Shown here one piece after another: positions 6,384 to 38,786 of a DNA stretch of 64,000 bases; positions within the stretch are counted from its first letter, which is position 1, and each line of letters starts with the position of its first letter. Position numbers and translations under genes: made by a program. Origin of the DNA: Scatophagus argus. Its lineage: Eukaryota; Chordata; Actinopteri; Scatophagidae. Under the pieces are notes generated by a model. That model searched no databases. It worked only from the letters and a program-made list of their open reading frames with translations, and was not told the DNA's origin. The stretch covers positions 13,253,872-13,317,871 of the forward strand of contig NC_058499.1 in assembly GCF_020382885.2 (NCBI RefSeq). The letters are read 5' to 3'.

Positions 6384-9300
6384 ATGGACAGCGGTGAGGG
6401 AGGAGGAGGAGGGGATGGAGGGGGAGGAGAGGAAAGAGATGCTGACCTCAGTCCCCAGGCTTTATCTCTTCCTCTCCTGACCCTGGCGGTCATTCCTGAG
6501 CAGGGGTCATCCTCTCATACCTCAGCCATGGCCCCTGCCAAAGAGCCCCCGACCCTGCCTCAGCAGCAGCAGCAGGAGGAGGGCGCAGAGGGGTCCCAGG
6601 CTAGAGAAGAGACCCACGGAGGTGAGCAGAAAGAAGGAGGCCGACATTCACTGGAAAATGGAGTGTGTCAAAAGCAGGGGAAAAAGGAAGACTTCGGGGA
6701 GGGATATTTGTCAAGGCAGTGGAAGGAAGAAGGGGAGGTGCACGTAGGTGTGGGAGAGGCGTCAGTTACAGGGGGCCTCCCAGCAGCCCTAAGCAGCAGA
6801 GGCGGAGAGGAGGAGAAGGAAGAGGAGGAGGCCATCTCAAACCAAAGCCAAACCAAATCCAAATGTTCTTTATTACCTCAACAGAGCCAGCACAGCTCTT
6901 CTTCCAGCACTGCAAAGGCCAGTGGCATACTCGACAGCAAAATAGCCGCTTCTCCAAAGCCCTCCCCCACTCCTTCCAACTCTCCAAAGTCCTCCCCTTT
7001 TCTTTCCACCTCTCCAAAGCACTTCATTTGTCCGTCCTCCTCTTCTGCCCTGCTGAGCGAGACAGAGGTAAAAGACATTAAGGGAGATCAGGGCTGGATT
7101 TCTGGGTTTCCTCAGAGCTTTAAATCCCAGCAGTCTACTCTGGCTTTTCCAGTGGCAGGTACAGAGCTGGCCAGTACACCTGCTGAGGATGATGGGCCGG
7201 CAGGGGTTCCTCACTCTTCCATTTCGAATGGAGATGGTGCCAAAGCTCCAGAACCAAATGACAGCCAGCTAGACACAGAGGTGGATGATGAGAGAGACAA
7301 AGAAGGAGAACAGAAAGAAGCTGTCCTTAAAAACCTCAACCAAGACCTCTCTCCTAATTCACTGACTAGTCACATGACCATAATGCACTCACGTAATTCC
7401 TGCAAAACGCTGAAATGCCCCAAGTGTAACTGGCACTATAAGTCACAGCATACACTGCAAGTACACATGAAAGAGAAACATCCAGAGACCGGAGGCCAGT
7501 GTGTGTGTGGCGCCTCTGGGGGAAAGTGTGTTTGTGGTGGTGCAACACGAGATGTGTGTGGATACTGCAGTTCGGGAAAACCCCATCCTCGCTTGGCTCG
7601 CGGTGAAACATACGCCTGTGGCTACAAGCCCTACCGCTGTGAGGTGTGTGACTATGCTACCTCATCGAAAGGCAACCTCAGCATACACATGCAGTCGGAT
7701 AAACACCTTAATAATGTTCAAAATGGGGGACACGCAAATGGTCACATGCACACTTCTCACATTACCAACAGCAGCAGCTCCTCCAATGGTCACACAGTGG
7801 ATGAGCCAACATACAAGCTTCCACTCTCTATTCCTACGCCCACCACCCAGCCCACTAAGCTCACACCACCTGCACACTCTCACTCTCATTGTAAGCGGTG
7901 GCGGTGTGATGTGTGCGACTATGAGACCAGCATTGCCCGCAATCTGCGCATACACACCACCAGCGAGAAACACACGCATAACATGTTACGGCTCCAGAGA
8001 GGTTACTATCTGTCTCACTGCAGGAGTCTGGCCCCGCAGCTTAAACACCTACAAAACACAGGTGAGTAATGCATCACATCTCTCGCTGTAATCCAACATA
8101 GAAAAACGTGCACATTCTTACAGGGATTCTCTCTGTGTTTTAGGCGCCGAGCTCTCCCTCAACATGAGATTGACCAGTCAGCAAGTCACAGAACAGCCAG
8201 TCTCCCTGGGGTCTACACTGACTCCTTCTCCCTCCCCTTCTCCCTCTCCCCCTCCAGCCTCATGTCTGTCCCCCACTTCGCCCCTCTCCCAGGGCGTGTT
8301 TCAATGCCTTGTCTGCTCCTGCTTCTCATCCGACAGCTTAGAGTCTGTGGAGCAGCACCTGAACACCCCTCGCTCTCTGCCCCAGTCTGAGTGGTGCTCC
8401 CTGGTCGCTGGTGGCTGCCACTGCAGGCTGTGTGGATACACAACCCCACTGAGGGCTAACTTCTCTTTGCACTGCCAGACTGACAGACATCGCACCCGAT
8501 ACCAGCTAGCTGCTCACCTACAGGAAGGTGGTGACAGGGGTCAGGAGGGGGCCGCCCTCATTGCTAAGGGTAACCCTGTTCAGCTGAGGTGCAACCTGTG
8601 TGACTACGTGACCAGCAGTTTGGAGAAGCTACGAGGACATTCCCTCAATTCCCACCACGAGGCCGGCGTCCGGGTTTACAGAGTCAGTAAACTTTCAATA
8701 ATAATTCCTTTTTTTTGGACCTGCAAGCAGCTTTGTGATAATCAGATTAGATTTAGATTTTGTCCAACCACAGTAATTTTTTTTTTTGTCTCTTTTGTGC
8801 CTCGTTATTTGCAGTTCCTGCAGCAGTATGATGGTGAGGTTGATGGAGGTTCGTGGCTGTTCCATTGTCTCCTATGCAACCACTCCTCCTCTTCTAAACT
8901 CCAAGTACTGAAACACAGTCAAACCCCAACGCATCAACAGAGGGAAGGGCTACTGCAGCTGCAGCCAATGGGCGGAGAGGAGCTGGCGGCCATTTTTACC
9001 ATCAGGAAAAGCCCTGGTGGTGACACAGGTGAGAATATGAACTGTATGGGTGTTTTTGAATTCATGTTGTGTGTGCCTGCTGGCATCTGAGGTACAGAAA
9101 GAGGATTAAGATGAAAAGAGTGAGATAATGAGTAATGGCAGTTGTTGAGATATTGATGAAGTAAATTGATTAGTCAATACTCATCCTTGTTATATCCCCA
9201 ATAACCCCTGACAACAGCTAACTAGCACCTGCTAATCAATGGACCAATACAGATCCCCCTCTACAAGAATGGGGGAGGTGGAGGCTAGTCACTAGTCTGC

Positions 9301-12300
9301 AGTCTGTTCAAATAAAATACTGATTTTAGATTGTCTATAAAGCTGGCAAGGACACCCAAAATGAGTAGTTCAACACTTCAGTGGTGAATTAAAAGTATCC
9401 TGTGATTTGTCAATGTGCAGATTAAGACTTATCGAGGTGAACTGATGTGTTGTAAGTCCATATTACCTCTACTCCACCTCTGAGGAGAATCTAATGGAGA
9501 ATCAATACTTGATCAATAGTGTATGGAGGCAAGCAAGAAGAATGAAGTGTGGTCAGAAGACATTGGTCTTTTTTGAAGGATGCTATCTAGAGAATAATAT
9601 AAACTGCAATTAGCCCGATAGTTTGTGAGAACATATTATATAAAACACAACATTTGTATAGCATAATTATTTGTCTTGTCGTCACCCAGGAGAGCTCAGT
9701 GAGGATATGGAAACCTCCATTGAGACCACCACTGGTCCTCTGGACACAACCAAAGACTCATGTAACTTGGGGGCAAAGCAGATTTCTGAGGAGACAGGTA
9801 CGGCTGCTTCTACATGCAATGTAATTCAGCATGGTCTAAAACATTTTATAGTTAACACAAACAGTTACATGATAATAAATTACTTACACAGTAAACATCA
9901 ATTTATATCCATTTTAATATAATTTTTTCCCTTGTAGGAGAAACCAAGGGGGAGGAAAGAGAAAGTCGAGAGTCCTTTCCCCCAGTTAAACGCCCATCCT
10001 CTGGATGTGGGGAGATGGAAAACTCCATCTCAACCAAACGCCCCAGAATACACCAGCAAAATGAGAACCAGCAGGTGAGTAGTGGACCTACGCTTTAATA
10101 ATTTAAGTATGTCCATGTGAATATAAAATGTAATAATATATGCAACAATTGCAGTACTAGATTAGAATACCCGGCAGTTTCTCTTCACTTCTCTCGTTTC
10201 CTTTTTTCCCTGTGTACTCTTTTAGACTGTCCAGTGCCCTTTGTGCCAGGTTACGCTCCCATACATACATCTTCAACAGCATCTTAGACATGTGCACAGT
10301 GTGGCTCAGGACTGTGTAGACAAGCTCATCAGCACAGTAAGTGTATGCACGTGTATGTTTGTTATATTTGCGTTCGTCAGGAAGCAAAAGAAAATGAGAA
10401 AGCAAAGTGATGGGGGATGGGGGAGAGTGAAATGTAGGGAGACAATTCCATTAAGAAGGCACCAGAGAGAAAGGCGGCGCTTTTTTTTAATGCATGTTTA
10501 AGTAGCTCCCCGCTATCATCTTTGATGCAGCCGTGCTTTCTGTGTGTATGTGTATGTGTATGCGCGTCTTTTAGAGTGGAAGAGACTGAGTGAGTGAGGG
10601 AAAAGCCAGCCTTTCTATAATGCATGTTTAAGTAGCCCTCTATTACCAGAAGTGCAGTCAAGCTAAAAAGGGGCCCCCATGCTTTTTACTGTGTCTCTCC
10701 AACTAACAAAGACTGGTCATCTATCCACATCACCATCCTCCATCTCCCTGGCCCGTATGCTAAGTGGCCTTTGTCTCTTGCGCTCTTCGCCTCCACTTGA
10801 CTGACTGCTTTTCACCCTTTCTCCCCTTTGCTGTCCTTTTCTCCCCCCTCAAGCTACTCCTATCATTCCTATTCAGCAATCTCTGTTTCTGCCCCTCCCT
10901 TTCTGTCTCTCCCAAGCTCTCTCTCAATTTCTTATGCGTTACCCCTCCCTCACTCACTCTCTCTCTCTCTCACTCTCTGAAGCAGTTTTTTTTGTTCATT
11001 GCCCCATACTTCCTCCCTCCCTCTTCCTGCTCCTTCTCTTTTTCATAACCCCCCCATCACCACCACCATCACCACCACCACCACCATCACCATCGTCCTC
11101 CCTCCTACCCCTCCCTCACTCTCTCTGATAGTAATTGAGGTTCATTAATTCAGACTGAGGTGATGATGGCCATTATGTACCTTGCTTTCCAATTACGCTC
11201 TCTAGATTAAGCCTGACCTTCAGTTTTCTCTGCAGTGTGTATGTGTGTGTCTGTGTGGTTGTCCCTCTCTTTCTCTCTTATGAAGCTGTTATGTAGGAAA
11301 AACTCTTGTCATGTAAATCTCATCTTTAGTTGTCCATCCTTTCCTTAGGGTAGCTAGCTGCTTGCATAGATAAAGTATTTGCTCTCAGTGCTTGAAGCTG
11401 TAGAGATGGAGGTTTTCTCTATGAAGAATGATTTTAAATAAATTCATTATTCAGCTCAGTAAAGTTTTATTAAACCCTTGAGGCATGTTGGAGGGTGTCG
11501 TTGGAGCTGAAGGGCAGACCCACATATTTCAACCATATACACTTATTACCAAATTGATGTGCTTTGCCATCTATACTGCTGTGAAGGCAGGTGCAGGATG
11601 TAACAATGCACTTACGGATTCACACTTTAATGTTTTATGATATTAGGAAGGGGTGTGCAGACACTATATTTGTACATCTTGATATTTTCTTGCATTTATG
11701 CTGTACAATTAAACATGTTTTATTCATAATGTTGGATTAAGAAAATATGGTAATATCCCATTTTTCTTTAGTCTGAATTAATAAAACAGCTAGCATGCAA
11801 TAAAAAACAAAAAAGACTGAAAGTGACAGACTATCACTTTTTTTTGTGCTCCAGGTCACACTTTCCATGGAGCAACCGCAGCTTCCACCACAGATGGACC
11901 CACAGACAGAGTTGCACACAGATGATACTCAGAAAAACAAAAACACCAAGAATAACAATGCAAATTGTTGCCATACTGCTGATTCTGTTGCCCCTGCTGA
12001 TTCACAGAAAAACAAAGGTTTGTATAAAATACATGAAAAAAACTGACCAGATGTGGATATGAATTAAAGAATTAAACCATTTCACAATCATTTGTTCAAA
12101 ACATCATCTTATTAGCCAAATGTCATTGTAAAATAATTTTAAATTCACAATCACTGTTTTTATGTGTTTTTTCAGGCATTTCAGTGGACAACACTGAAGG
12201 AGATGTAGCCGCACCCAAAGATGTCACAGCTCTACTCACCCCACCCCTAGAAGAGAACACCACTCACCCTTCCAATGGCAGACTGGCTCCTCAGTCCCCG

Positions 12301-15300
12301 ACTCAGATCCCCCACTCTTCCCCGCCCACCTCCCCACCCAGCGATCCCCCTCCCCTTTCTGATCGCCATGGTTACCGGTTCCGTTGCAGCAGGTGCAGCC
12401 TGGCGTTCCCCACTCAGGAGAAGCTCCAGCTGCACTGGCAGTACCATGCCATGAGGGCGGCGACAGAGTGCCCCCTCTGTTCTAGGCAATGTCGCAGTCA
12501 GGAGGCCCTGCAGAGACACATGCAAAACACACACTCACAGCTGGACAACATACAGGGGCAGAACACACTATTACCGCCCCATACTGCACAATACATGGAG
12601 CATAATAAGAGTTCAGTTCAACAGGATTTTAGTTTGTCACCTCAAGTGGGTCAAGAAGCAGGAGAGGGTGAGGATGAAGAGATAGAGGAAGAAGCAATAG
12701 GCATGGAGGGAATGGAGGAGCAAAAAGAAGAAGTACAATTTAAAGAGAAGGACATTGTTGGTGAAGTTGATAGAGATGAAGAGGATTTAACTGAGCTAGA
12801 GAAAGGGTCACATGAAGAGATCATATCAGAGCCTAGTTCCAGCTCTATTGTCAAAAAGACCTCTAACCCCACAATGGACCGCTATCTTGATCCAACCAGG
12901 CCCTATAAGTGCACCATATGCTCAGAATCTTTTACTCAGAAAACCATTCTTCTGGTCCACTATAACTCTGTGTCTCATCTCCACCGAGCGAGAAGAGCCC
13001 TGCAGGACTCCGGCACAGGCGTTGCTGCACCTGAGGCTCCCCGTGGCCCAGATCCTAGGCCATACCGCTGCCGATTGTGTGGAGTGGGCTATAGCCAGAG
13101 CTCCACACTGGACATACATCTTCGCTCTGTGCTTCATCAGACTAGAGCTCGTGCTGCCCAGAACACAGCTCCACAGACCTCAGCATGTAGTGTAGCTGCT
13201 CCTGTGTCAGTCCCCACTACTGCCACTCCGACTGCTACCACCAGAGAAGAAACATCCAAGAGTTTCCCTTTCACCAAGAGGTCCGATGTGGTGAATTCTT
13301 CAACCTCCTCGCTTTTGGGCTTAGCAGCTGAGGCCCAGCCAACCCTCTCTAACCTAACTGACAGCCAGCAGACTAAAAAGAGAGTGGCAGATCTTCTCGC
13401 ATCAAGAAACCAGCTAATGCTAATACAACAGCAGCAGTTAGCCCAGGCTCAGGCACAGGCCCAAGCTCAGTTACAGCAACACACAGCTCTGCTCCAGTCC
13501 CAGTTGATCCAGCATCTTCCTTTAGGGCCAGAGAGTCTCCTTAAACAGCAATTCCCCTTGACACCAGAAAACCTGCTCTCTCTGCAGCAGCAACTTCTTC
13601 TGCCTTTTTACCTGTCAGGGGACGTGAAGCTCAACCCAGAGTTAGCAGTTAAGAGCTCAGAACTTAGTCAGTTAGTATCTGCAAACTCCACCCCAAAAGA
13701 ACAAGTTAAGGCAGAAGCTAAAAGGGAGTCTCAGCCCCAAATAGATGAGAAACAAAACAACAAAACAAAACAACAGAGGGAAAATTCAAACTCAGCTGCT
13801 GTCCAGCCAAAGGATCCGGTGCAGTGTGAAGCCAAGGTTGAAGCAGGCTGCAGTGGATCCTCCATCAGTCAGACAGAAAGAGATCACAGCCATTCTAGTC
13901 TTGAGGAAGAAAAAGAAGAAATGCTTGTTCCTACTATTAAAAATGACAGTCAGAAGGAGGAAACAGGTTCCTCATCATTTAACCTAATTGGATTTCAGTG
14001 TCCTCCTCCCAGAGTGCCCTATGCTGCTGTGAATGGGGAGCCTCTTAGAGCCTTGTTACAAAGTTATGGCTATGAGTTGGCACTGCAGTATATACAAAGT
14101 AGACACAGACATCAGCAACAGATATCAACTCATATGATGCCAGATAAACAAGAGGGCTCTGACATCAACAAGATGGAGATGTGCTCAGATGAAGAAAGAG
14201 ATGAGTTTAATGAATTACAGGATGGAAAGATGGAAGGCTATAAAGACAACAACAAAGGAACAGACAGCAATGGAGAGACAGAAGAGAAGATGCAGAACAA
14301 AGATGAGCAGTTAGCAAACAAAGAGAAAAAATGCTGTGGAAAAGGAGAAAAATGTAGGGACTGCGGAAAGTTTTTTTCAGATGCGCTGATTTTAAAAAGC
14401 CACAAGGAGTACATTCACAGGATCCTGTTTCCCACTGCTGCGCTTGAGAGGTTTTCCAGAGAATACAGGCTGCAGTATGACCAGATGTACCCCCTCACAC
14501 AGCCTAAATCCGGGGACACTTCTAATGCTTGTCCCCAAGCTGCAGCCCCAGCCCCATCCTCAGAAACAGAACTACCACTGGAAACAGTTAAGCCTCAAGT
14601 TAAAACCCTTGCAACTTCATCTATATCTTCAGTTTTAGACCCCATAACCAAAACATGCAGTCCAGCTACAGACCTAACACCAAATGCTCCTGCACCTCCT
14701 CCTCCTTCCCAACCTCAAGATATTTTACAACAAGAGGAACCCATCCCAAGCACATCTGCCACAGTTCCTTCTCAAGCCACATCCCCAGCTAAGTCCATAC
14801 CTCTTCCCTTACCTAAAATACCTATGCTTCCTCTCCCTTTGCCCCAGCTTCCTTTGCCCCCATTGACTTTACCCAAGCTTCCCCTACCCCCCCTTCCTTT
14901 TCCCATGGAGCTACCTCTCCTCCCTCCAGTTGTGATGCAGTCTGTGGCTCTCCAGCCCCAACCTTGGTTAGACTCAAGTGTGAACCCTGAACTGGCAAAA
15001 CTCTATCAATCTCAACTCAACCCAGCACTGCTAGGAAAACAGCCACAGCTTAGTCCTGCTTTGCTAGCCCAGCAATCCCAGCTCAGCCCAGCTTTGCAAG
15101 GCCAGCCTTCACAGCTCAATCATGCGCTGCTGGCTCAACCATCTCAAGCCAGCCCTATCCAAACAGGACAACAACCCCAAGTCAACCCAACAATACTTGA
15201 ACAACAGCTTAAGAGAACCCGAACACGAATTTCTGAGGAACAACTGGCTATTCTGAGGAAACACTTTGATATTAACTGCCTCCCCAGTGACGAAGAGATT

Positions 15301-18034
15301 AACAAGATGTCTGGTCTGTCTGGTCTGCCACACAAAGTTATCAAACACTGGTTCCGCAATACCCTGTTTAAAGAGCGCCAGCGAGACAAGGATTCCCCTT
15401 ACAATTTTAATAATCCCCCAATCATATCACTGGAGGAGTCCAGTGAGGAAGTCGAACAAAACCAGCCTCAGACACTTTCCTCTTGTTCACTGTCCCCAGG
15501 CCTTTCAACCAAAACCTCCCTCCAGACAACAGACCTCGAGAGAGGAGAGCCTCATAGGGGCCGACGCTCTTCCCGAACACGCTTCACAGAGCAGCAGCTT
15601 GAGACCCTGCAGGGTGTGTTTGAGGCCACTCCCTACCCCAGAGAGGAAGAATATGACAGGTTATCTGCTCTACTGTCTCTCCCTAACAGAGTAATTGTGG
15701 TATGGTTCCAAAATGCTAGACAGAGAGCCCGCAAAAATCAAGACCGAGGAATAGAAGATGGATTAGAAGAAAAGAACCAGCTTGACAACATTCACACACA
15801 GAGAAACGGCTGCTATAAAAATAGTGATGATAATGGGGATAACTGCTATGGGGATGAAGGACAGGCTGAATCTCAGAATGAAAACTCCATGGATCTGACT
15901 TATGAGTATTACACCAACCCTGACTCGCCTGTCCTTGATTCTTCCTCTCACTGCACAGACACTGAGAATCCAACAGCCAAAGGTGAACCAACATCTGTTA
16001 CCAGGACACAGGAAGATCAAAAAATCTCTCCTGTGGCTAGCAAGAGCCCAGCCCTTGCTCAAACTCAGAAGGAAATTTCAAATGCAGACATCCAGCATCA
16101 GGAAATTGTTCAAGCAGTGAAACAAGGATTGTCTCCACAACCTGAGCCCAAACTGCAGCCAGAAAGTACTTCAGAAAGAACACAGCCTTCCTCTTCCTCA
16201 TCTTCACAAAAAACAAAACCCCCCACCCTGCCCATGGCTCATTCTAGTCATGGCCGTACATATAGCTCTCCTTCTGATAAAGCTGTTGAAAGACCTGCTG
16301 ATACATCACCCAACCTTCTTGCTGGTCCAGACACAGAAACAGGCCACACTCTGCTGCCTGATGCCACCCAAGGCCTATCCAGTGAAGTCCAGTCAAAAAA
16401 CCAGCTCCAACCCCAAACCCAGTCTCAGTTCCAGTGCAGTCTATGTCCAATGTCCTTGCCTTCATTCCAGCTGTGGCAGGAGCATCAGACCAGACATGTC
16501 CTGGCAGCTCAGACCCAGGTCCAGTTTCTCCACTCTGGCTTCACAGACCGAACCATGCCTTATATGATGCTCCATCCCAACCACACCCTGATGGCCAGCC
16601 AAATGCTTTCAGGCGCCATGTCCCAGATACACACTACTCCCACACATCCCATGATTTCACATTTAAACAGCATACAAATTAAGAACACACTCTCTGACCA
16701 CTCAAGTAATGCCCTCACCAGCCTCTCTCAAAGTTCCTTGACACCAATGAAGCAGAATTCAAAGCTTATGTCAGAGACCAGTTTTGAGATTCAAAGGGGC
16801 AGTAGAGAGGTTGAAGAGGAGCACAGAAGGGATAAGCGTCAGAGAACCACAATTACCCCAGAACAACTTGAAGTGTTGTATCAGCGTTACAGCTTGGATT
16901 CTAACCCCACCAGAGGAGTCCTGGAAAGCATCGCACGTGATGTAGGCCTCACAAGACGTGTGGTTCAGGTACTTCAGGGATGTTTGTTGTGTTTGGATAT
17001 ATGTGAATGTTATGTTTTGAGAGAGAGAGAGAGAGAGAAAGACAGGCATAGAAAATGATGTAATGCTTTTGAGTATTTTGAATTTTAAAACATCCTGGCC
17101 CTTTCCTTCACAGGTCTGGTTTCAGAATACACGAGCCAGAGAGAGAAAAGGACAGTTTCGCTCAATGGGTCCAGGATCCAGTTTCAGCTTGGGTTTCAAC
17201 CACCTGCGCTGCCCATTCTGCAGGGCGCTCTTCAAGGTTAAAAGTGCTCTTGATGCCCATGTGAGGTCACGCCACTGGGCGGAGGCTGAAAGAGCAGGCT
17301 TTAACTTATCCATGAGCAGTGGTTCCGGTGCGCAGACTGGCATGGCTATGCCATCTGCCATGGACAGGCCAGGCCCATCTATCTCCTCCAACCCCATCCC
17401 AAAACAAGGCTATGTCAACAGCAACAAAGAGGCAACTGTGAAGGCACCTGTGGCCACTTTGTCTTCAGCCACAGATCTGAACAACCCAGAGGAGGATGAT
17501 GACTATGACGAGGATGATGAGGAATACCCATATGAGGAGTGCCGCAGTATGGCTGACCAAGCTTCTCCTAGTCCTGAGGGATCTGGGGGTCCAAGCTCAG
17601 ATTGGGGTGAGACACAGACTCTGCAGCAGCACCACCATCATCATCAACAGCGCCAAAGGACACAGATGAGCCACTTCCAGGTACTCCAGCTGAGAGACTT
17701 CTACAGGAGCCACCGTACCCCCAACCGTCATGAGTGTGAGGCACTGGGCCAGGAGTTGGGACTGCCTCACCGCGTGGTACAGGTAAATCTTCTCAAATAT
17801 TCATAAGTAATAAAGTAATACAATGCAGTTTTATCTAAATGTATTAAAACAATAATACACTTATTAAAACAATAGTAATAGTTAAAAAAAATTATTCATA
17901 CAAATATTTTTTTGCAGGTGTGGTTCCAGAATGCCAGAGCCAAGGAGAAGAGGGCCAGGAGTCTGAGCTCTGACTCTGCAGAGAGGGAGCAGGCAGAGCT
18001 GTCCGCAGGGGCAGGGGAGAGAGACAGAGCTTAA
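6384..18034 (+). CDS. zfhx2: Zinc finger homeobox protein (ZFHX family, zfhx2-like)
   Basis: Large nuclear transcription factor of the ATBF1/ZFHX family, expected to bind DNA. Coding exons by frame and GT-AG sites: 6384-8061, 8144-8682, 8815-9028, 9690-9797, 9938-10074, 10226-10336, 11855-12017, 12176-16968, 17114-17782, 17918-18034; total 2842 residues. The start is the ATG at 6384; an in-frame stop lies at 6357-6359. C2H2 fingers fall near residues 345, 417, 507, 653, 708, 755 and 895, with more in exon 8, including the family-typical [18 protein letters not shown]. Homeodomains: about 1995-2054, 2112-2171, 2538-2597 and 2760-2819; the last two are each split by an intron just before VWFQN, as in the family. 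Acidic, Gln-rich and Pro-rich linkers separate them. Length, a short N-terminus before the [19 protein letters not shown] motif and compact introns favour zfhx2 over zfhx3/4, but human ZFHX2 has only three homeodomains, so the paralogue call is less sure than the family call. Confidence 0.9.
10337..11854 (+). other. zfhx2 intron 6 with conserved-looking blocks
   Basis: This 1.5 kb intron is the largest inside the coding part of the gene. It holds two diverged copies of a segment sharing TAATGCATGTTTAAGTAGC (10488-10506 and 10618-10636), a pyrimidine-rich and CAC/CAT-rich tract at 10760-11125, and an AT-rich homeodomain-site-like block at about 11120-11225. No exon is seen in it; the flanking exons join in phase 0. 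Confidence 0.5.
11120..11225. promoter_or_regulatory. Candidate intronic enhancer block
   Basis: Non-repetitive sequence with several TAAT/ATTA cores (AGTAATTGAGG, TTCATTAATTCAG, GGCCATTATG, CCAATTACGC, AGATTAAGCC) set between low-complexity tracts. The composition resembles conserved vertebrate developmental enhancers. Conservation is not tested here. Confidence 0.35.
15007..15204 (+). repeat. Six 11-codon tandem repeats before homeodomain 1
   Basis: Six consecutive 33-base units encode variants of an 11-residue unit, with units such as [11 protein letters not shown] and [11 protein letters not shown]. They cover about residues 1928-1993 of the ZFHX protein and stop two residues before homeodomain 1. 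The unit edges follow the codon frame with no indels, so the array has been kept in frame. A coding minisatellite is the simplest explanation. Confidence 0.75.
17015..17040. repeat. (GA)n microsatellite in a zfhx2 intron
   Basis: It lies just after the donor that splits homeodomain 3. Reading through it would append a non-family tail rich in Arg and Glu, which confirms that it is intronic. Confidence 0.85.
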
Positions 18035-28700: not shown

Positions 28701-29674
28701 ATAAAAGCATGATTAATTGAGACAATATGTCCTTGTACATGAAGCCTCGAGTCACATTTTGGATGAAAACTTGAGAATATGTTACCTTGAAAAAAAAAGC
28801 CTTACAGCATTATGCTTTTCAACTACACAAAGCGTTTTAGAGTCTGCTCCACAAGTGTTACAAATTATGGTTCCCCGCTGTGCATGTTCAAACTCTTATG
28901 CATGGTCTCATTAACAAAAAAACAGCAACAAAAAAATGCTATTACTTATTAATACTTAGCAACCCCTCTACAGAGTGAATACAGACATGATTACAAATAC
29001 ACTGCTGGGTACACTGTTTCTTAGCTTTGTTTTTTCACCTACCATCACAGCACGCACTTGTAGAAGAACCAGTTCCTGTCAAGATGAAGGCCATGTAAAA
29101 ATAATAGAGTGGTTATCTTAAGAGAGAGATGTCCATCAGCATTTTTTTTAATCTCAGCAATCCCTGATTGATTGGATTTAGTTTGTGGGGAACCATATCA
29201 TGACAAATTTTAGTTGGGATGTATGATTTGGAATGACTATAATGTGGATGGAGAGTAAGAATGAAACATATGACAAAAACATACGTTGTAATCATGTTTA
29301 TTATTTCCATATTTCTCTACCCTCAAGTCATATTAATGAAATGTAAACAGGGAATCCCATGCTGTGAAAAAACAGCAACGCACCCATGGGGCTCACTGTC
29401 CTCCCTACCTAGCTCTTATTAGTTAGACTTGCACTCCCCCTACTGGTGATATTCACACATTACAAACCTTTAATTTGGAAGGTTACAAAACACTAACACA
29501 TGGGTTGTGTAACTGAAAATCAGCTGTTTGGTAACCAGTACCGTGGGTAGGTTCAGGACGTATATGTTCTGAATGCGTGCGTTTAAACGATGTAATAGAC
29601 TTATTGTTCTTATTATTATAAGTACGTAGCATTTTTACAGCATCTCATAATTTATCGCCACCTTTCACTTGAAG

Positions 29675-32600
29675 ATGCCTCCTTCAGTCGCGGGTGGTGC
29701 CGAAGATAGTAAAGCCTTGGTGAGAAAGATGTTAAGGGAAGTCCTGGTGGGTCGAGAGGATCCAGAAGGTTTTTTTGCGATGTGCGTGTCCGCCCTGGGA
29801 CACCAGGAGACCCGCTCTAAGTTCCTGTCCCTCATCCAGCCCCTGTCCACGGCCAACATCTCCCTGCACTCCAACCTCACCTCCATCTACAAGGAGTATT
29901 TCTCTGAGGTCAGTGTGACTGTACTAAAATCGTTGAACTAAGTTTTAAATACCCAGGTTACAAAGTGGTTCAAAGTTATAAATGAAAGAACAACTTTAGT
30001 TAGATTTTAAAAAACCAAACCAAACCATAAATCAAATACGTAAACATTTCAGCACTGATGACAATAGCTTTATTTAGTTAAATCACTCAGAGACGAGAAG
30101 AGTATGAAAAGCGAGTGTTTTCGTTGGCGAGTAACGTTGGTCGGTATGTTGTGTCTCACTACCTACTTAAGTTGCATAAAGTATTCCTTAACCACTTCAA
30201 AAGGCAAAACTACTTCAGTTTGATCAAAACTTGTGAGCTGTATTGAAGTTGACTTGAAGTTGTCATGGCTAACGTGCTAGCAAACAACTACGTAAGTTAC
30301 GTTGACATTAGCGGAAAAAGAGCGACAAGTTGTGGAACTCTCTTAAATTTAAGTGCCACTTCAGCTGACTTTTCAGCCCCTTTTTGTCTACCAGCTTTTG
30401 AGAAAAACACCAATATCTCCTTTTCTGTACTTGGTTTCCTGCTTCTTAAGAGATGCCAGGTAAAGCTAGCTCATGTTAGCTCCTGTGCGGAGAGAAACTG
30501 CCACACGCTTATTCCAATTAAAACAATTATATTCCTTGAGTGTATAATACGTATAATAAGCCAAATGGCAGCCCTCATGTACTATTCAGCCAACCTAATC
30601 ACATTACGTAAGATTACCACCAGGCAGTGTTATGATAGTTCAATGAGAAAAAAACAATTATTGAAAGTAATAAAAACTTTTACATTTGCAGATTTTACAC
30701 CATTAATGACTAATCTGTGTGAATATTAGTCTACATTTGTAAGCATTACATTTGTTTTCACTTTTACTGGTTGATAAAGATTTGTCATTAATGCTAAGCT
30801 TTAGTAAAACAAACAAGCAAACAAACAAACAAAAATAAGTAATATATTAATTAGTAGCACTCACTAAGAATGGCAAAGTAGTATATTTTTCTGCTCATAC
30901 AGGTGAAACAAACCTAACAGTAGAGTCAATGGAAGTCAATGGAAGCCTCGTACTTAGAAGACATCCAATCGATTTAAATTAGTGAAAACATTTTTGCATA
31001 GTCTTTGCATAACACCAATCTTACTGTTTGGTCATATATTGTACTGTTCATACTGAAACAGCTTGCTCTTGTTTTGCTTGTGTGTATGTTAATATTTGCA
31101 CTTGTGTTTGCAAATATTGCACATGAAATTCATTATCATCATCTCTACCTCAATAACTATGAATAATTATTTGGACAGTAATACAACTATGGGTTGTCCT
31201 GATCAAATTTTAGTCTGAAGATGATGAACTGGAACTTGCCTTGGCTCTCTCTCTGCTGGAAACGAAAGATGACCAGCTGTCAACCCCCAGCCGACAGTCC
31301 AAACTTAAAAGAAACCCTGCTCGACTGACCTCGCTACCTCAGACTCAGGGAGGCAGCCACACTCAGTCTGCAGATGTAGACTCCAGGGTAAAAAACATCA
31401 GCTCACTCCGAGATGGACCCTGGGTCAAGCTGAGCACACCACAAATAACCGGAGAAGCCAGCCTTCAGGGAACCGCACATATTGAATATAATAAGGAAAC
31501 ACCAGGGACAAGTCAGACTGTGCATGTTTCCACACTGCCTGGCTCAATTTTCAAGCAAGAAATGGGTGAAGAAGGCGAGCAAATGATGGATGAGGGACAT
31601 TCAGATCAGTCAGAGAATCGAAAGCGCTCTAAGAACAGGCGCCAGCGCCGTAGAGGTGCCAGCCAACAGGTTGTAGGTTTGCCCTGTTCTCCATCAGCAC
31701 TACCACCGGTCCTGCTGTGGTTCAGGAGGGACTTGCGTCTGTGTGATAACCCTGCTCTCACTGGCTCTTTGGAGCTCGGTGCGCCTGTCATCCCCATCTT
31801 CATCTGGAGCCCTGAAGAAGAGGAGGGACCTGGGATTACGGTGGCTATGGGGGGAGCTTGTAAGTTGCCTGAGTAATCAGTTATGATATCAGATATATCA
31901 GATTATGGCAGTCTTTGTCTCTGCCCTTAGTAGTAGCTGTGCTTGTTGTAACTTTTCATGCAGAACTAAAGCTTATTTTCTAAGTTGAAAATCTCTTGAC
32001 TTGTCTAATCACATTTTTTTTTTTTTACTGACAGGTAAATACTGGCTTCATCAAGCTTTGTCTTGTTTTTGTTCTTCTCTGGAGCACATTGGCAGCCATC
32101 TTGTGTTCTTCAAGGCGACAGGACAGGGGAATGAGGTTGGATCTTCTCTATGTATCCTTAAGGGGCTAGTAAAGGAGACAGGGGCGAGAACAGTCCTGGC
32201 AAATGCCCTCTATGAGCCCTGGCTGAAGGAGCGGGATGACGCTGTGGTGTCAGCTCTTCAGAAACATGGTGTCGAATGCAGGATGTTCCACTCGTACTGT
32301 CTCAGAGACCCTTACACTGTCAGCACGGAGGGTGTAGGACTCAGAGGTTAGTCTTAACGGCAAACTCAGCTTGTACTCAGCTTGTTTAAACATTTGAGTT
32401 TAATATCAAGATTTGAAATATCTATGGAGATACAAGATGATTAGCAACATCTTCATCTTATGGTGAACCTTCTTCTCTCTTGATTTAGGAATAGGTTCAG
32501 TGTCTCACTTCATGAGCTGCTGTAGACAGAACCCAGGGTCTGCTTTAGGGGTCCCCCTAGACCCTCCTGTATCTCTGCCTACGCCTGCCCACTGGCCTCA

Positions 32601-34619
32601 GGGCGTCTCTTTGGACACACTAGGCCTGGCACGCATGCCTCGTAGGAAGGATGGCACAACGGTCGGTAACCACAGCCCTGTAGTGATGAGCAACAGCCCA
32701 GTATATGACTAAGATTAGATCCTCAATATTTTCTTGTGTTCATTTTGTCCTTCAGATTGACTGGGCAGCTAACATTCGTAAATCCTGGGATTTCAGTGAA
32801 GAAGGTGCCCATGCACGGCTAGAAGCCTTCCTTCATGATGGTGAGACACCTTAGTGAGACCTGGTAAATATTATCACACTCTATGTTTGGAGGAAAGAAG
32901 GCATTGGTCTAACTCTATCGTATGACTCTCCCATGTATCCTAGGTGTGTATAGATATGAAAAAGAGTCAGGCAGGGCAGATGCCCCGAACACCAGCTGTC
33001 TGTCTCCATACCTTCACTTTGGTCAGCTCAGCCCACGCTGGCTGTTGTGGGACGCCAAAGGGGCACGCTGTCGTCCCCCAAAGTTCCAGCGTAAACTGGC
33101 ATGGAGGGATTTAGCATACTGGCAGCTAACATTGTTTCCTGACCTCCCCTGGGAATCCCTCAGACCTCCGTACAAGGTAGAAATCGGCTACAGATAACTT
33201 AAAAACTTATTAACATATACTTTAATGTTACACCTAAATGCAAAGAAAAAAAATATGTTGAACCGTGCTTCAGTTTCTTCGTACGTAATTTAAAGCCTGT
33301 GTCACACTATCAAGAATAAAGAAAGTTTATTACAAAGTAGTGTTCATTCATTTGAAGGCTCTGCGGTGGAGCAGTGATCGTGGCCACCTAAAAGCCTGGC
33401 AGCGAGGTCGAACAGGCTACCCCCTGGTGGATGCAGCAATGAGGCAGCTGTGGCTGACAGGCTGGATGAACAACTACATGAGACATGTGGTGGCATCTTT
33501 TCTCATAGCATATCTCCACCTACCATGGCAAGAGGGCTATCGCTGGTTCCAGGTGAGACTTGTATGTGTGAGATGTGCATGCATATACACACACACACAC
33601 ATACACATACACATATATACGTATGAAGCAATGCACAATAATAATAATAAGTAATAATAAGTATAACTTACTGACTGTATTCACATGTGTTTAGGACACT
33701 TTAGTGGATGCAGATGTGGCGATAGATGCTATGATGTGGCAGAATGGCGGCATGTGTGGTCTGGATCATTGGAACTTTGTCATGCATCCAGTCGATGCAG
33801 CGATGACCTGTGACCCCTACGGCAGCTATGTTCGGAAATGGTGTCCTGAACTTTCAGATCTGCCTGACGAGCTTATTCACAAACCCTGGAAGTGTCCTGC
33901 GTCTATGCTTCGGCGAGCTGGTGAGGAAGTTATGACTCTGCTTCTTCATATTTTTCATTTTCAATTAGATATTTAGTCTAAATAAAATGTAGTTTTTTAA
34001 ACATGCTACATACAGTATACAGTTCCACGCCTTAACAAACTAAATCTCCTCGCCTTGCTCCCCTCATTGTTTAGGTGTGGTGTTTGGCCAGACATATCCT
34101 GAGAGAATAGTTACAGACCTGGAGGAGCGGAGGAGTCAGTCTCTGCGAGATGTAGCTCTGGTGCGAAAAGAGTTTGGACAGTATGTGGACAAGCGCTCAG
34201 GCTGTGACTTGGTGCCTCTGCCCCCACGTCTGGTCTCTGAGGCTCTGGGCTTATCACACAGGGATGGGAGTGTAGTGACGGCAGGGAAACAGTTCCTGTT
34301 GCCTGTTATCACCCGCATGGAATTCAAACACCAGCTAGACGATCCAGATGGAGATGCTGCCACAAATCCCTACAACGCTGTTCTGAAAGGATACGTGAGC
34401 CGCAAGAGGGATGATACCATTGCCTTCCTTAACGAGCGAGACTTTACTGCCAGCGTGATGTACGAGGGAACCCAGAGGAGGGAGAGGCTGGAAAGTGATT
34501 ATCGCAGAATAGAGGGACTCCCTCGGCCTCCTGCACCTCGGGGCAGGGCCAGGCGAACTCCAACAGCCAAGGACAGATTTTCCATAGTGCCTGGTGGGAC
34601 TGTCACTTCACTCAGGTGA
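29675..34619 (+). CDS. Photolyase/cryptochrome-like protein with N-terminal UIM
   Basis: Exons: 29675-29908, 31214-31859, 32035-32346, 32489-32661, 32756-32840, 32944-33176, 33358-33552, 33695-33920, 34075-34619; 882 residues with an unbroken frame. Residues 1-78 form a helical-looking segment I do not recognise. Residues 79-94 (SEDDELELALALSLLE) fit the ubiquitin-interacting motif. A basic stretch from residue 214 resembles a nuclear localisation signal. The photolyase region starts near 241 (VLLWFRRDLRLCDNPAL) and runs to about 715, with YLHFGQLSPR, AWQRGRTGYPLVDAAMRQL and LVDADVAIDAMMWQ. The Trp triad of E. coli photolyase (W306, W359, W382) aligns with W565, W618 and W641. Asn378 aligns with Asp637, and Glu274 with Lys534. 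It is not CRY-DASH, (6-4) photolyase or animal CRY by these motifs; it recalls plant cryptochrome or plant photolyase-like proteins. FAD binding is likely; repair or signalling function is undecided. A C-terminal tail of about 165 residues is Arg-rich. Confidence 0.88.
29909..31213 (+). other. Intron 1 of the photolyase-like gene, with D-box-like sites
   Basis: It separates the N-terminal segment from the UIM exon and joins in phase 0. A long open frame (from about 30265) has no family features and no splice support, so it is not called a gene. PAR-bZIP D-box-like words occur: CTACGTAAG (30288-30296), GTTACGTTG (30296-30304) and ATTACGTAAG (30603-30612). The last matches RTTAYGTAAY at nine of ten positions. 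Confidence 0.5.
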
Positions 34620-35866: not shown

Positions 35867-38786
35867 TTAGTCCTCAATGGAGCGGATGTATCTCTCGTAG
35901 GCTGCTTCATCCATTAGAGTATCAAGCTCTGCGGGGTTGGCAATGGTCATCTTCATCAACCAACCTAAAATGAAGAGGTTTAAATCAGGTTAGACTATGA
36001 GTAGAGGGCCATATCAGTGTTTTTGTATAGCTCAGCCCACATACAGTATTTTTAACATCACTGCCACTGGCTTCCTTTTTTCATTTGAATATGATAATCT
36101 ACAACCCACATTCCCAAAAAGTTGGGATGCAGTAATCAAACTGATTATTTGATCTGTTTGACATATACTAAGTTGAAAACAGAAAAGTGGCAATATACTT
36201 GTGTGTTTCATCCGAGCAATTTCAGTGAGTTGGGAATTTGATGATATCAGCATGTACGAAATAAGCTGGGACAGAGACAACAGTGGAAAGCCGACTGCTC
36301 AGAAAACACCTGCTTGGAAAGTTCCATTGATAACAGGTGAAAATGTCATGGTTGCGTATGAAAGGGGCATCCTCAAAAAGCTCACTTGTTCACAAACAAG
36401 GATGAGGTAAGGTTCACCACTCTGAAACACAAGATTGTGTGAAGGATATGACTGCACGGGCTCTGTAAAACTTGTGTCGGTAAAGAAATGATTGTTTTTG
36501 ATAAGGCAACAAAGCACGTCACTGGGCTTGTTTCGGATGTACTGCCAAGGATATAGTTAGTGAAAACTCTTTGCAGTGACAATGTAATTCCGGCAAAAGC
36601 AAAAAGCATTTTTTGCCACATCAACCAAGCTGATTTTCAAATTTGTCAATGAAAGGAAACCATGTTGCTGGTATGCCGTGAAAAACAGCGAGCAGTAATT
36701 TGTGACATTACGAATTTGTTATAACATGCAAAAAAAGTTGGTATATATCAGGTGTGTGGTAAAGATGGCTCACACTACAAAATGTGCTACATTGGTTACT
36801 CTTCACAAACAAAATAAAAAAAGATTATACAAAGTACAAGACAGTAATTTGAATTATACAAAAAGGTCTTCACTCCTAGTGGCTTCCTACTATGCTATGT
36901 TGCATTACTGCCATCTACTGCCAAACTGGAACCAGTAAATATTTTCCTTAAACCTCAGAGCCGATTTCTGGGAAGATTATAGTTTGCAAAACCAAAAACA
37001 GTAAAACATTTCTTAATCAGTATTTAGATGTTATATTAAAGTTTTGAAACGGGTTAAAATTAAACATTTATCTGTAAAAATGTATTTGTATGATCCAGAC
37101 CTGCAGCCACAGTTTTATAAATTTTCTTTTTTACCTGGTGTTCAAGTACAAAATATACAAAAAAATCTTAGAATCTATAGGGTTGTTATTATATATACTT
37201 TGCAAAGCCTTATTCAAATAACCAAATATTCTATATAGATTACGCATTTTTAAGTGTGTGCTTACCATCTTTATAGCAAGATTGGTTGACCAGACCCGGT
37301 TTGTCTGCCAGTAATGTATTGACCTCTACGACTTCTCCAGTCAAAGGAGAATAGAGTTCACTGGCTGCCTTCACGCTTTCCAGAGCTCCAAACTCATCTG
37401 TGAAAGTAAATGGTAGAAAAAGGTGCATTCACATCAAAGGTCAGGCCAGAAGTATGGCAGCCATACAGAGGACACAGGCAGTTATACTCCAAGTCATGTT
37501 GACCTTAATTAAGGCAGGTGTTTTGTAGCACAACTATATGTGTTTGCTTATTCAGTGGTTCTGCAAGGTACACAAAAATCAAATGCACCAATTCAAAATT
37601 GCATGAAAAAAATATTTACAATTGCTGACTTAGTTTCTTGAGAATAGGTAAAAAAAAAAATCTATCAAATCAATCTATTTCTCATTTTTAAATTTGGATT
37701 TAGATCAACCAATGATCAGCGCCTCTCTACAATCCTTGATGCACGTCACTGTTCTATTAAATTACTTATTTTATTAAATAAATTCCTTTTGGTGCCTTTT
37801 GGTTGAAATAAAGAGTAGCTATGTTACTGTCATCTACAAAATAATGTTGACAAGATCAGACAATCGGTATGTTGATCATTTTTTTTTATTTCACTCATTA
37901 GTAAGATAAGTTCAGAAAACTGTATTAAATCATCGTATTGTTACCCTCAAGCCTGTGCTAAAAATCTTCAAAATAAAATTTTAATTTTAAGACAGTACTA
38001 TCTTAATCACAAATCTCACATCACAAAACAACTACAGCGCGTCAACAGAATTTTCTCTTCAATACCACGGACTGAAACGCATAAGCTTATTAGTACTTAA
38101 TAAGTGGGTGCTGTAATGTTAACGTGAGCCACACTACCCTCATCTTCATACCTTGCTGAGCCAGCTGTGTTCCAACCTCTGGAAGTCCACAGTAAACTAC
38201 GTCTCCCAGAGCCTCCTGCAAGCGGCAGAAAGCAGTGAGAGGTAGCAGCAAAAACATTTACTTCACAGTGTGCTTTGTGTGCGGGCGGTTGTGAAAGTGT
38301 ACGCTCTTGTCCAGAAAACTTACTTGTGCGAAGTGGCTGATGCCGACGGTACCAATTCCTCCGTCTTCTACTCGAATCCATTCGTGCTTGTCTGTGAATT
38401 TAAGCGCTGCAAAATAACACAACAGACTCATGACATAAATAGGCTTCCGTTAGAAGACTTTTGAAGTATTTTGTAATACACGATCAACATGATGATGACC
38501 AGCAGGAACATGCATCAGCGTAGCCAGCTCTCATGCCCTTTTCTCTAGCTAATGTTACCCTCTAGCAACCGAAATTGTCTGCTAACATGCCGCAACGGAA
38601 CGCATTTACGGGGGCCATACATGCTAATTACCTACCTGCTGTTATTCGGCTAGAAGAGGCTAATGTTCTTCCAAAATAAAGTTTAGTTGTCAGTCGCAGC
38701 GGAGAAAGTGGTGCCGAGCGGGTAAGTAAAGGCAAAACTGTGAAAAAGTTGGAAGACAGGGAGCGGAAAAGCCCACAGGCGGCCAT
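35867..38786 (-). CDS. gcsh: Glycine cleavage system H protein, mitochondrial
   Basis: Lipoyl-carrying shuttle protein of the mitochondrial glycine cleavage complex; its lipoyl arm carries the aminomethyl group from P protein to T protein and is reoxidised by L protein. Exons on the minus strand: 38636-38786, 38324-38406, 38152-38215, 37266-37397, 35867-35964; 175 residues, close to the human length. The first exon encodes a Met-Ala-Ala start and an Arg/Ser/Leu-rich, acid-free mitochondrial presequence. The mature part includes [32 protein letters not shown] and [20 protein letters not shown], where the Lys of ESVKA is the lipoylation site. It ends in [12 protein letters not shown]. Intron 4 carries a transposon remnant. 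The gene is tail-to-tail with the photolyase-like gene. Teleosts can have two gcsh copies; I cannot tell which this is. Confidence 0.95.
36100..36745. mobile_element. Internally deleted Tc1/mariner-type transposon copy
   Basis: The left end begins ACAACCCACATTCCC followed by AAAAAGTTGGG, and the right end carries CAAAAAAAGTTGG. Ends of this kind are familiar from a common teleost DNA transposon. The inside contains words from its transposase leader (GGCATCCTCAAAAAGCTCA, GGTTCACCACTCTGAAACAC) and then jumps to later sequence, so most of the transposase is gone. It is non-autonomous and lies inside gcsh intron 4. Identification is from memory; the right boundary is approximate. Confidence 0.55.

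Follow-up and report, generated by a model that had tools for sequence, protein, structure and literature searches.

The locus considered here raises two questions: to which branch of the photolyase/cryptochrome family does a gene of the fish Scatophagus argus belong, whose product appears to carry a ubiquitin-interacting motif (UIM) ahead of its photolyase core, and is this product a DNA repair enzyme or a cryptochrome? The gene lies in a stretch of 64,000 nucleotides of contig NC_058499.1 (positions 13,253,872 to 13,317,871 of the forward strand). This stretch is referred to as the window, and all coordinates below are counted from its first nucleotide.

Gene structure and neighbourhood

The predicted gene is located on the + strand and consists of nine exons, with a coding sequence (29675-34619) of 882 codons plus a stop codon. 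The features of the gene are listed in Table 1. A preliminary description of this DNA had placed the gene at 29675..31859; the start remains as given, but it is only exon 2 that ends at 31859, and the coding sequence reaches 34619. The length given there for the spliced protein, 882 residues, is also the length obtained with the nine-exon model. The ATG at 29675 is the first Met codon past the upstream in-frame stop (open reading frame 29651-29941), and the next in-frame Met codon corresponds to residue 19. Exon 1 comprises 78 codons, and exon 2 joins it in phase 0. In Pfam searches, PF00875 matched residues 244-392 with 104.7 bits and PF03441, the FAD-binding domain, matched residues 531-726 with 226.8 bits. 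Both scores are far above cut-off, and the membership in the photolyase/cryptochrome family given in the preliminary description is correct. A 243-residue N-terminal extension precedes the core, in agreement with the earlier estimate of about 240.

Table 1. Features of the predicted gene in the window
Feature	Position	Strand	Evidence
Exon 1: start codon and 78-residue N-terminal module	29675..29908	+	gene model, ORF list
Exon 2: UIM, linker, basic NLS/NoLS-like stretch, start of photolyase homology region	31214..31859	+	gene model, Pfam, pattern
UIM, residues 79-94, SEDDELELALALSLLE	31214..31261	+	Pfam below cut-off; pattern and shuffles; counterpart of XtCRY6 DI-UIM
Exon 3: photolyase alpha/beta domain	32035..32346	+	gene model, Pfam
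Exon 4: VGLR/exon-junction region shared with exon 3; TrCry6 primer spans its 3' junction	32489..32661	+	
Exon 5: junctions 4/5 and 5/6 each spanned by a TrCry6 primer	32756..32840	+	
Exon 6: PCRY-like motif WRDLAY, residues 537-542	32944..33176	+	
Exon 7: FAD-binding domain (W565, N600-H604, W618)	33358..33552	+	
Exon 8: FAD-binding domain (D631, D633, D637, W641), PCRY-like motif MWQNGG 640-645	33695..33920	+	
Exon 9: end of core, C-terminal extension, stop codon	34075..34619	+	

One can ask whether the model describes a pseudogene or joins exons that do not belong together, since the joining of exon 1 to exon 2 is based solely on splice sites, reading frame and agreement with Xenopus tropicalis CRY6 (XtCRY6). 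This is hardly credible, however: all 882 codons are open, the introns are of the GT-AG type in eight cases out of eight, the photolyase domains detected by Pfam run unbroken through exons 2-9, and primers designed for Takifugu rubripes Cry6 (TrCry6) match over two of the exon junctions.

The neighbouring genes are ordinary. Upstream, on the + strand (6384-17055), two long open stretches belong to a ZFHX3-like zinc-finger homeobox gene; they contain three homeodomain matches and C2H2 zinc fingers, one of which matches a ZFHX3-specific finger model. Downstream, the - strand (37243-38449) carries exons of a gene for the glycine cleavage H-protein, with PF01597 matched by two of the three translated stretches.

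Relationship to vertebrate CRY6

When the protein was compared with PDB sequences, the score obtained with 4u63, which we take to be a class III CPD photolyase, was 293 bits; six sequences that we assign to plant-type cryptochromes scored 236-246, and the next, of the animal 6-4 type, scored 162. By PDB score, which provides a ranking and not a tree, the core is thus nearer to plant cryptochromes than to animal ones (236-246 vs. at most 162).

The three motifs of the PCRY-like subfamily (pl1, pl2 and pl3; PMC9498864) are all present in the fish protein, as VGLR at 394, WRDLAY at 537 and MWQNGG at 640. In the sequence collection of that paper, MWQNxG is found in 100 of 103 PCRY-like sequences and in 0 of 2144 others. 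Its main text uses the term "N-terminal extension" 0 times, in contrast to the fish protein, which has such an extension, with a UIM and an NLS/NoLS-like stretch, as XtCRY6 does.

A more specific link is provided by published primers. All four TrCry6 primers (PMC5394683) match the predicted coding sequence (19/22, 18/20, 18/19 and 21/23 bases), in mutually consistent order and orientation. The two that span junctions 4/5 and 5/6 match the spliced sequence better than the genomic one (18 vs. 17 and 21 vs. 16 bases). Six control primers picked from other genes in the same Fugu primer table reached at best 14 matching bases in the coding sequence and 16 in the whole window. The comparison with Takifugu CRY6 covers these four primer sites. 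Three of the four XtCry6 primers (PMC11520951) have no clear match in the gene (12-14 matching bases); the fourth matches at 16 of 20 positions at the expected place, a value that one control 20-mer equals elsewhere in the 64-kb window. The name "Cry6" has also been used for another group, in PMC4350181 (whose table places Drosophila cry there) and in a cuttlefish paper (PMC7553075), and that group is not the one of the fish gene. As judged from these sequence comparisons, this fish gene is almost certainly orthologous to vertebrate cryptochrome 6 (CRY6), for which the names plant-like CRY and PCRY-like are in use as well.

The N-terminal extension and its UIM

Residues 81-94 satisfy the strict UIM pattern, an acidic run being followed by Leu84, Ala87 (+3), Ser91 (+7) and Glu94 (+10); in this respect the fish motif, DDE-L-E-L-A-L-A-L-S-L-L-E, is a complete UIM. 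The profile PF02809 (UIM) matched at 79-92 with 11.6 bits (E 0.27) in the whole protein, with 13.1 bits in one fragment and with 15.9 bits in another, and PF23625 (UIM_2) scored 11.8 bits in the whole protein and 14.8 and 16.4 bits in two fragments. With both profiles, the UIM at 79-94 thus stays under the curated Pfam cut-off, which is 21 in each case. With PF02809, the Xenopus CRY6 peptide scores 22.6 bits. The UIM announced in the preliminary description is therefore borne out by pattern but not by its PF02809 score (11.6-15.9 bits vs. 21), and the profile search proposed there for the spliced protein supports the two photolyase domains, well above cut-off, and not the UIM.

When residues 1-243 were shuffled 20,000 times, the strict pattern arose once; with as many shuffles (20,000) of the complete protein, it arose twice. 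It occurs at a single place in the six-frame translation of the window (121,723 residues). A looser pattern was found in 1.2% of N-terminal shuffles, so it is the strict form that carries the weight. A search for the UIM family in the whole S. argus genome (570.7 Mb, 48 contigs) returned nothing; a 14-genome control equally returned nothing, and the search is therefore given no weight.

In the consensus of double-sided UIMs, the second face carries a Ser. In the fish helix, this position is occupied by Leu93, and the inverted-UIM core D-x-x-L-A-x-x-L, which the Xenopus peptide fits, is matched only with Glu83 replacing Asp. Together with the scores under the Pfam cut-off, these two substitutions would speak for a chance acidic amphipathic helix that has no ubiquitin role in S. 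argus. We regard this as very improbable given the rarity of the strict pattern among N-terminal shuffles and the location, which is shared with the polyubiquitin-binding Xenopus motif; according to the authors who described that motif, the CRY6 proteins of Takifugu and zebrafish have conserved UIMs as well (PMC11520951).

The preliminary description held that no animal photolyase or cryptochrome with a UIM had been described. This is not the case: an extension of ca. 200 residues with a DI-UIM, an NLS/NoLS and a KaiA/RbsU-like domain predicted to be tetrahelical was published for XtCRY6 in 2023, and the DI-UIM was tested by pull-down (PMC11520951). According to that report, the GST-DI-UIM pulled down K48 polyubiquitin in vitro, and shuffling of the motif reduced the pull-down, though not to zero. 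Three copies of the NLS/NoLS directed GFP mostly to the nucleolus, but in HEK293 cells the full-length fusion, GFP-XtCRY6, was located mostly in the cytoplasm. Searches of open-licence papers showed no further study of a CRY6 UIM.

The fish and frog proteins have in common the long N-terminal extension and the plant-CRY-like core, and the parts of the extension occupy similar positions. The UIM is at 79-94 in the fish protein, while the XtCRY6 motif lies within 78-105 (PMC11520951). The letters of the two motifs are SEDDELELALALSLLE and YETDLELAIALSLQEH, respectively; the former fits the strict pattern and has Glu for the inverted-UIM Asp, whereas the latter does not fit the strict pattern and has the inverted core. 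A basic NLS-like stretch, as noticed earlier, is indeed present in the fish protein (RKRSKNRRQRRR) at residues 214-225, compared with 212-221 in XtCRY6 (PMC11520951). The separate 78-residue N-terminal module with an exon of its own, also part of the preliminary description, is retained in our model. It has no Pfam match, and the first 106 residues have no match among PDB sequences at E values up to 10; the module sits where XtCRY6 has the predicted tetrahelical domain, a likeness by position. The fish gene is thus genuine and an ordinary representative of a family whose UIM-bearing architecture was already known, and its identity as CRY6 together with its make-up as a UIM-bearing cryptochrome is highly probable.

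Core residues, possible role and origin

Core residues were compared with those of E. coli phr, 4u63 and chains 1u3c and 6x24, the latter two being, we assume, plant cryptochromes; the roles of the compared positions are presumed from the photolyase literature. Alignments with 1u3c, 6x24 and 4u63 begin no earlier than query residue 232, where the core starts, and identity over the aligned stretches is 35.0%, 34.1% and 38.8%, respectively. The Trp triad is complete in the fish protein (W565, W618, W641) and is shared with these three proteins. R603 (E. coli R344) and both FAD aspartates, D631 and D633, are retained. At the flavin position corresponding to E. coli N378, the fish protein has Asp637; this residue is Asp in both plant cryptochromes and Asn in both photolyases. 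Of the six positions that we take to contact the CPD in E. coli phr (R226, E274, W277, R342, M345 and W384), five differ: R226S, E274K, R342Y, M345H and W384N (fish S492, K534, Y601, H604 and N643). W277 (fish W537) is kept, and so is N341 (fish N600), a pocket residue checked in addition to the six. Unlike the fish protein, 4u63 retains the CPD-contact residues. With five of six contact positions changed, the core resembles that of a cryptochrome more than that of a CPD photolyase, and the residue comparison favours this assignment.

The changed residues Tyr601 and His604, which replace the Arg and Met of CPD photolyases, are found in the stretch GWMNNYMRH (residues 596-604, within 33358-33552). 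The Asn-Tyr-His combination of this region is absent from all four aligned reference proteins.

The preliminary description had suggested an active DNA photolyase recruited by its UIM to ubiquitinated chromatin at lesions. The closest solved relative of the fish protein is indeed 4u63, presumably a class III enzyme; the retained equivalents of W277 and N341 leave room for repair of some lesion; and His604 occupies a position where 6-4 photolyases carry His. TrCry6, moreover, belongs to a light-induced cluster with Xpc, Neil1, CPD-Phr, 6-4 Phr and Cry-DASH, as well as with some non-repair genes (PMC5394683). Light induction in such company is compatible with the lesion idea. Nevertheless, an active photolyase appears improbable, given the altered CPD-contact positions and an Asp at the N378 position, as in both plant cryptochromes. 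The mostly cytoplasmic location of GFP-XtCRY6 (PMC11520951) speaks mildly against a role at ubiquitinated chromatin.

The role that we consider most likely for CRY6 is that of a blue-light flavoprotein whose N-terminus would engage ubiquitinated partners. The induction of TrCry6 mRNA by blue light (LL/DD ratio 4.17; PMC5394683) is in line with this. The fish protein probably binds FAD and would be photoreduced by blue light; for XtCRY6, chromophore binding and photosensitivity are posed as questions to answer in the Discussion of PMC11520951. By analogy with the Xenopus motif in vitro, the fish UIM is likely to bind mono- or polyubiquitin on partner proteins. Light might also control the access or localisation of the N-terminus, and CRY6 would then recognise ubiquitinated proteins under light control instead of acting as a repair enzyme, but this is doubtful. 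The most far-reaching version must be considered unlikely as a whole: CRY6 would take part in the light/UV damage response by reading ubiquitin under a light switch, docking light-dependently on ubiquitinated proteins through its N-terminal UIM and nucleolar signal. Its photolyase chemistry would be mostly lost, with electron transfer kept and its expression induced by light in a cluster that also holds repair genes, and its extension (oyster, fish, frog) would be an old, vertically inherited animal invention.

Light-response elements upstream of the gene were considered and dropped. There is a lone D-box-like site, TTGTGTAA (29505-29512), which ends 163 bases upstream of the start codon. Since the window holds 27 copies of the D-box-like pattern (18.2 expected; a count of 27 is attained in 2 of 100 shuffles), a single upstream site says little. 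CACGTG occurs 11 times in the window (6.9 expected), and none of these sites is within 2 kb upstream of the start codon.

Two accounts of the origin of PCRY-like genes have been given: one invokes horizontal transfer (PMC9498864), the other an ancient gene that was passed on vertically and lost many times (Oliveri et al., cited in PMC5224872). Cry-DASH usually accompanies PCRY-like (PMC9498864), and a plant-like Cry was reported in zebrafish (PMC4564169). One scan of prokaryote genomes for relatives of the core gave six pattern matches, none confirmed by tblastn. An extended N-terminal fragment was noted in 2017 in the plant-like cry of oyster (PMC5224872); its presence there and in frog, as reported, and in fish, as found here, would favour vertical over horizontal origin. 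If the extension is an old animal invention, this would count against the horizontal-transfer account of PCRY-like genes.

Because the ubiquitin link was already published for frog, the window adds one further fish ortholog; its own contribution is the exon structure of this ortholog and a set of core residues that speak for a cryptochrome and against a CPD repair enzyme. Among vertebrate cryptochromes, CRY6 has received little study, and the UIM it carries hints that a flavin photoreceptor may be connected to ubiquitin signalling.
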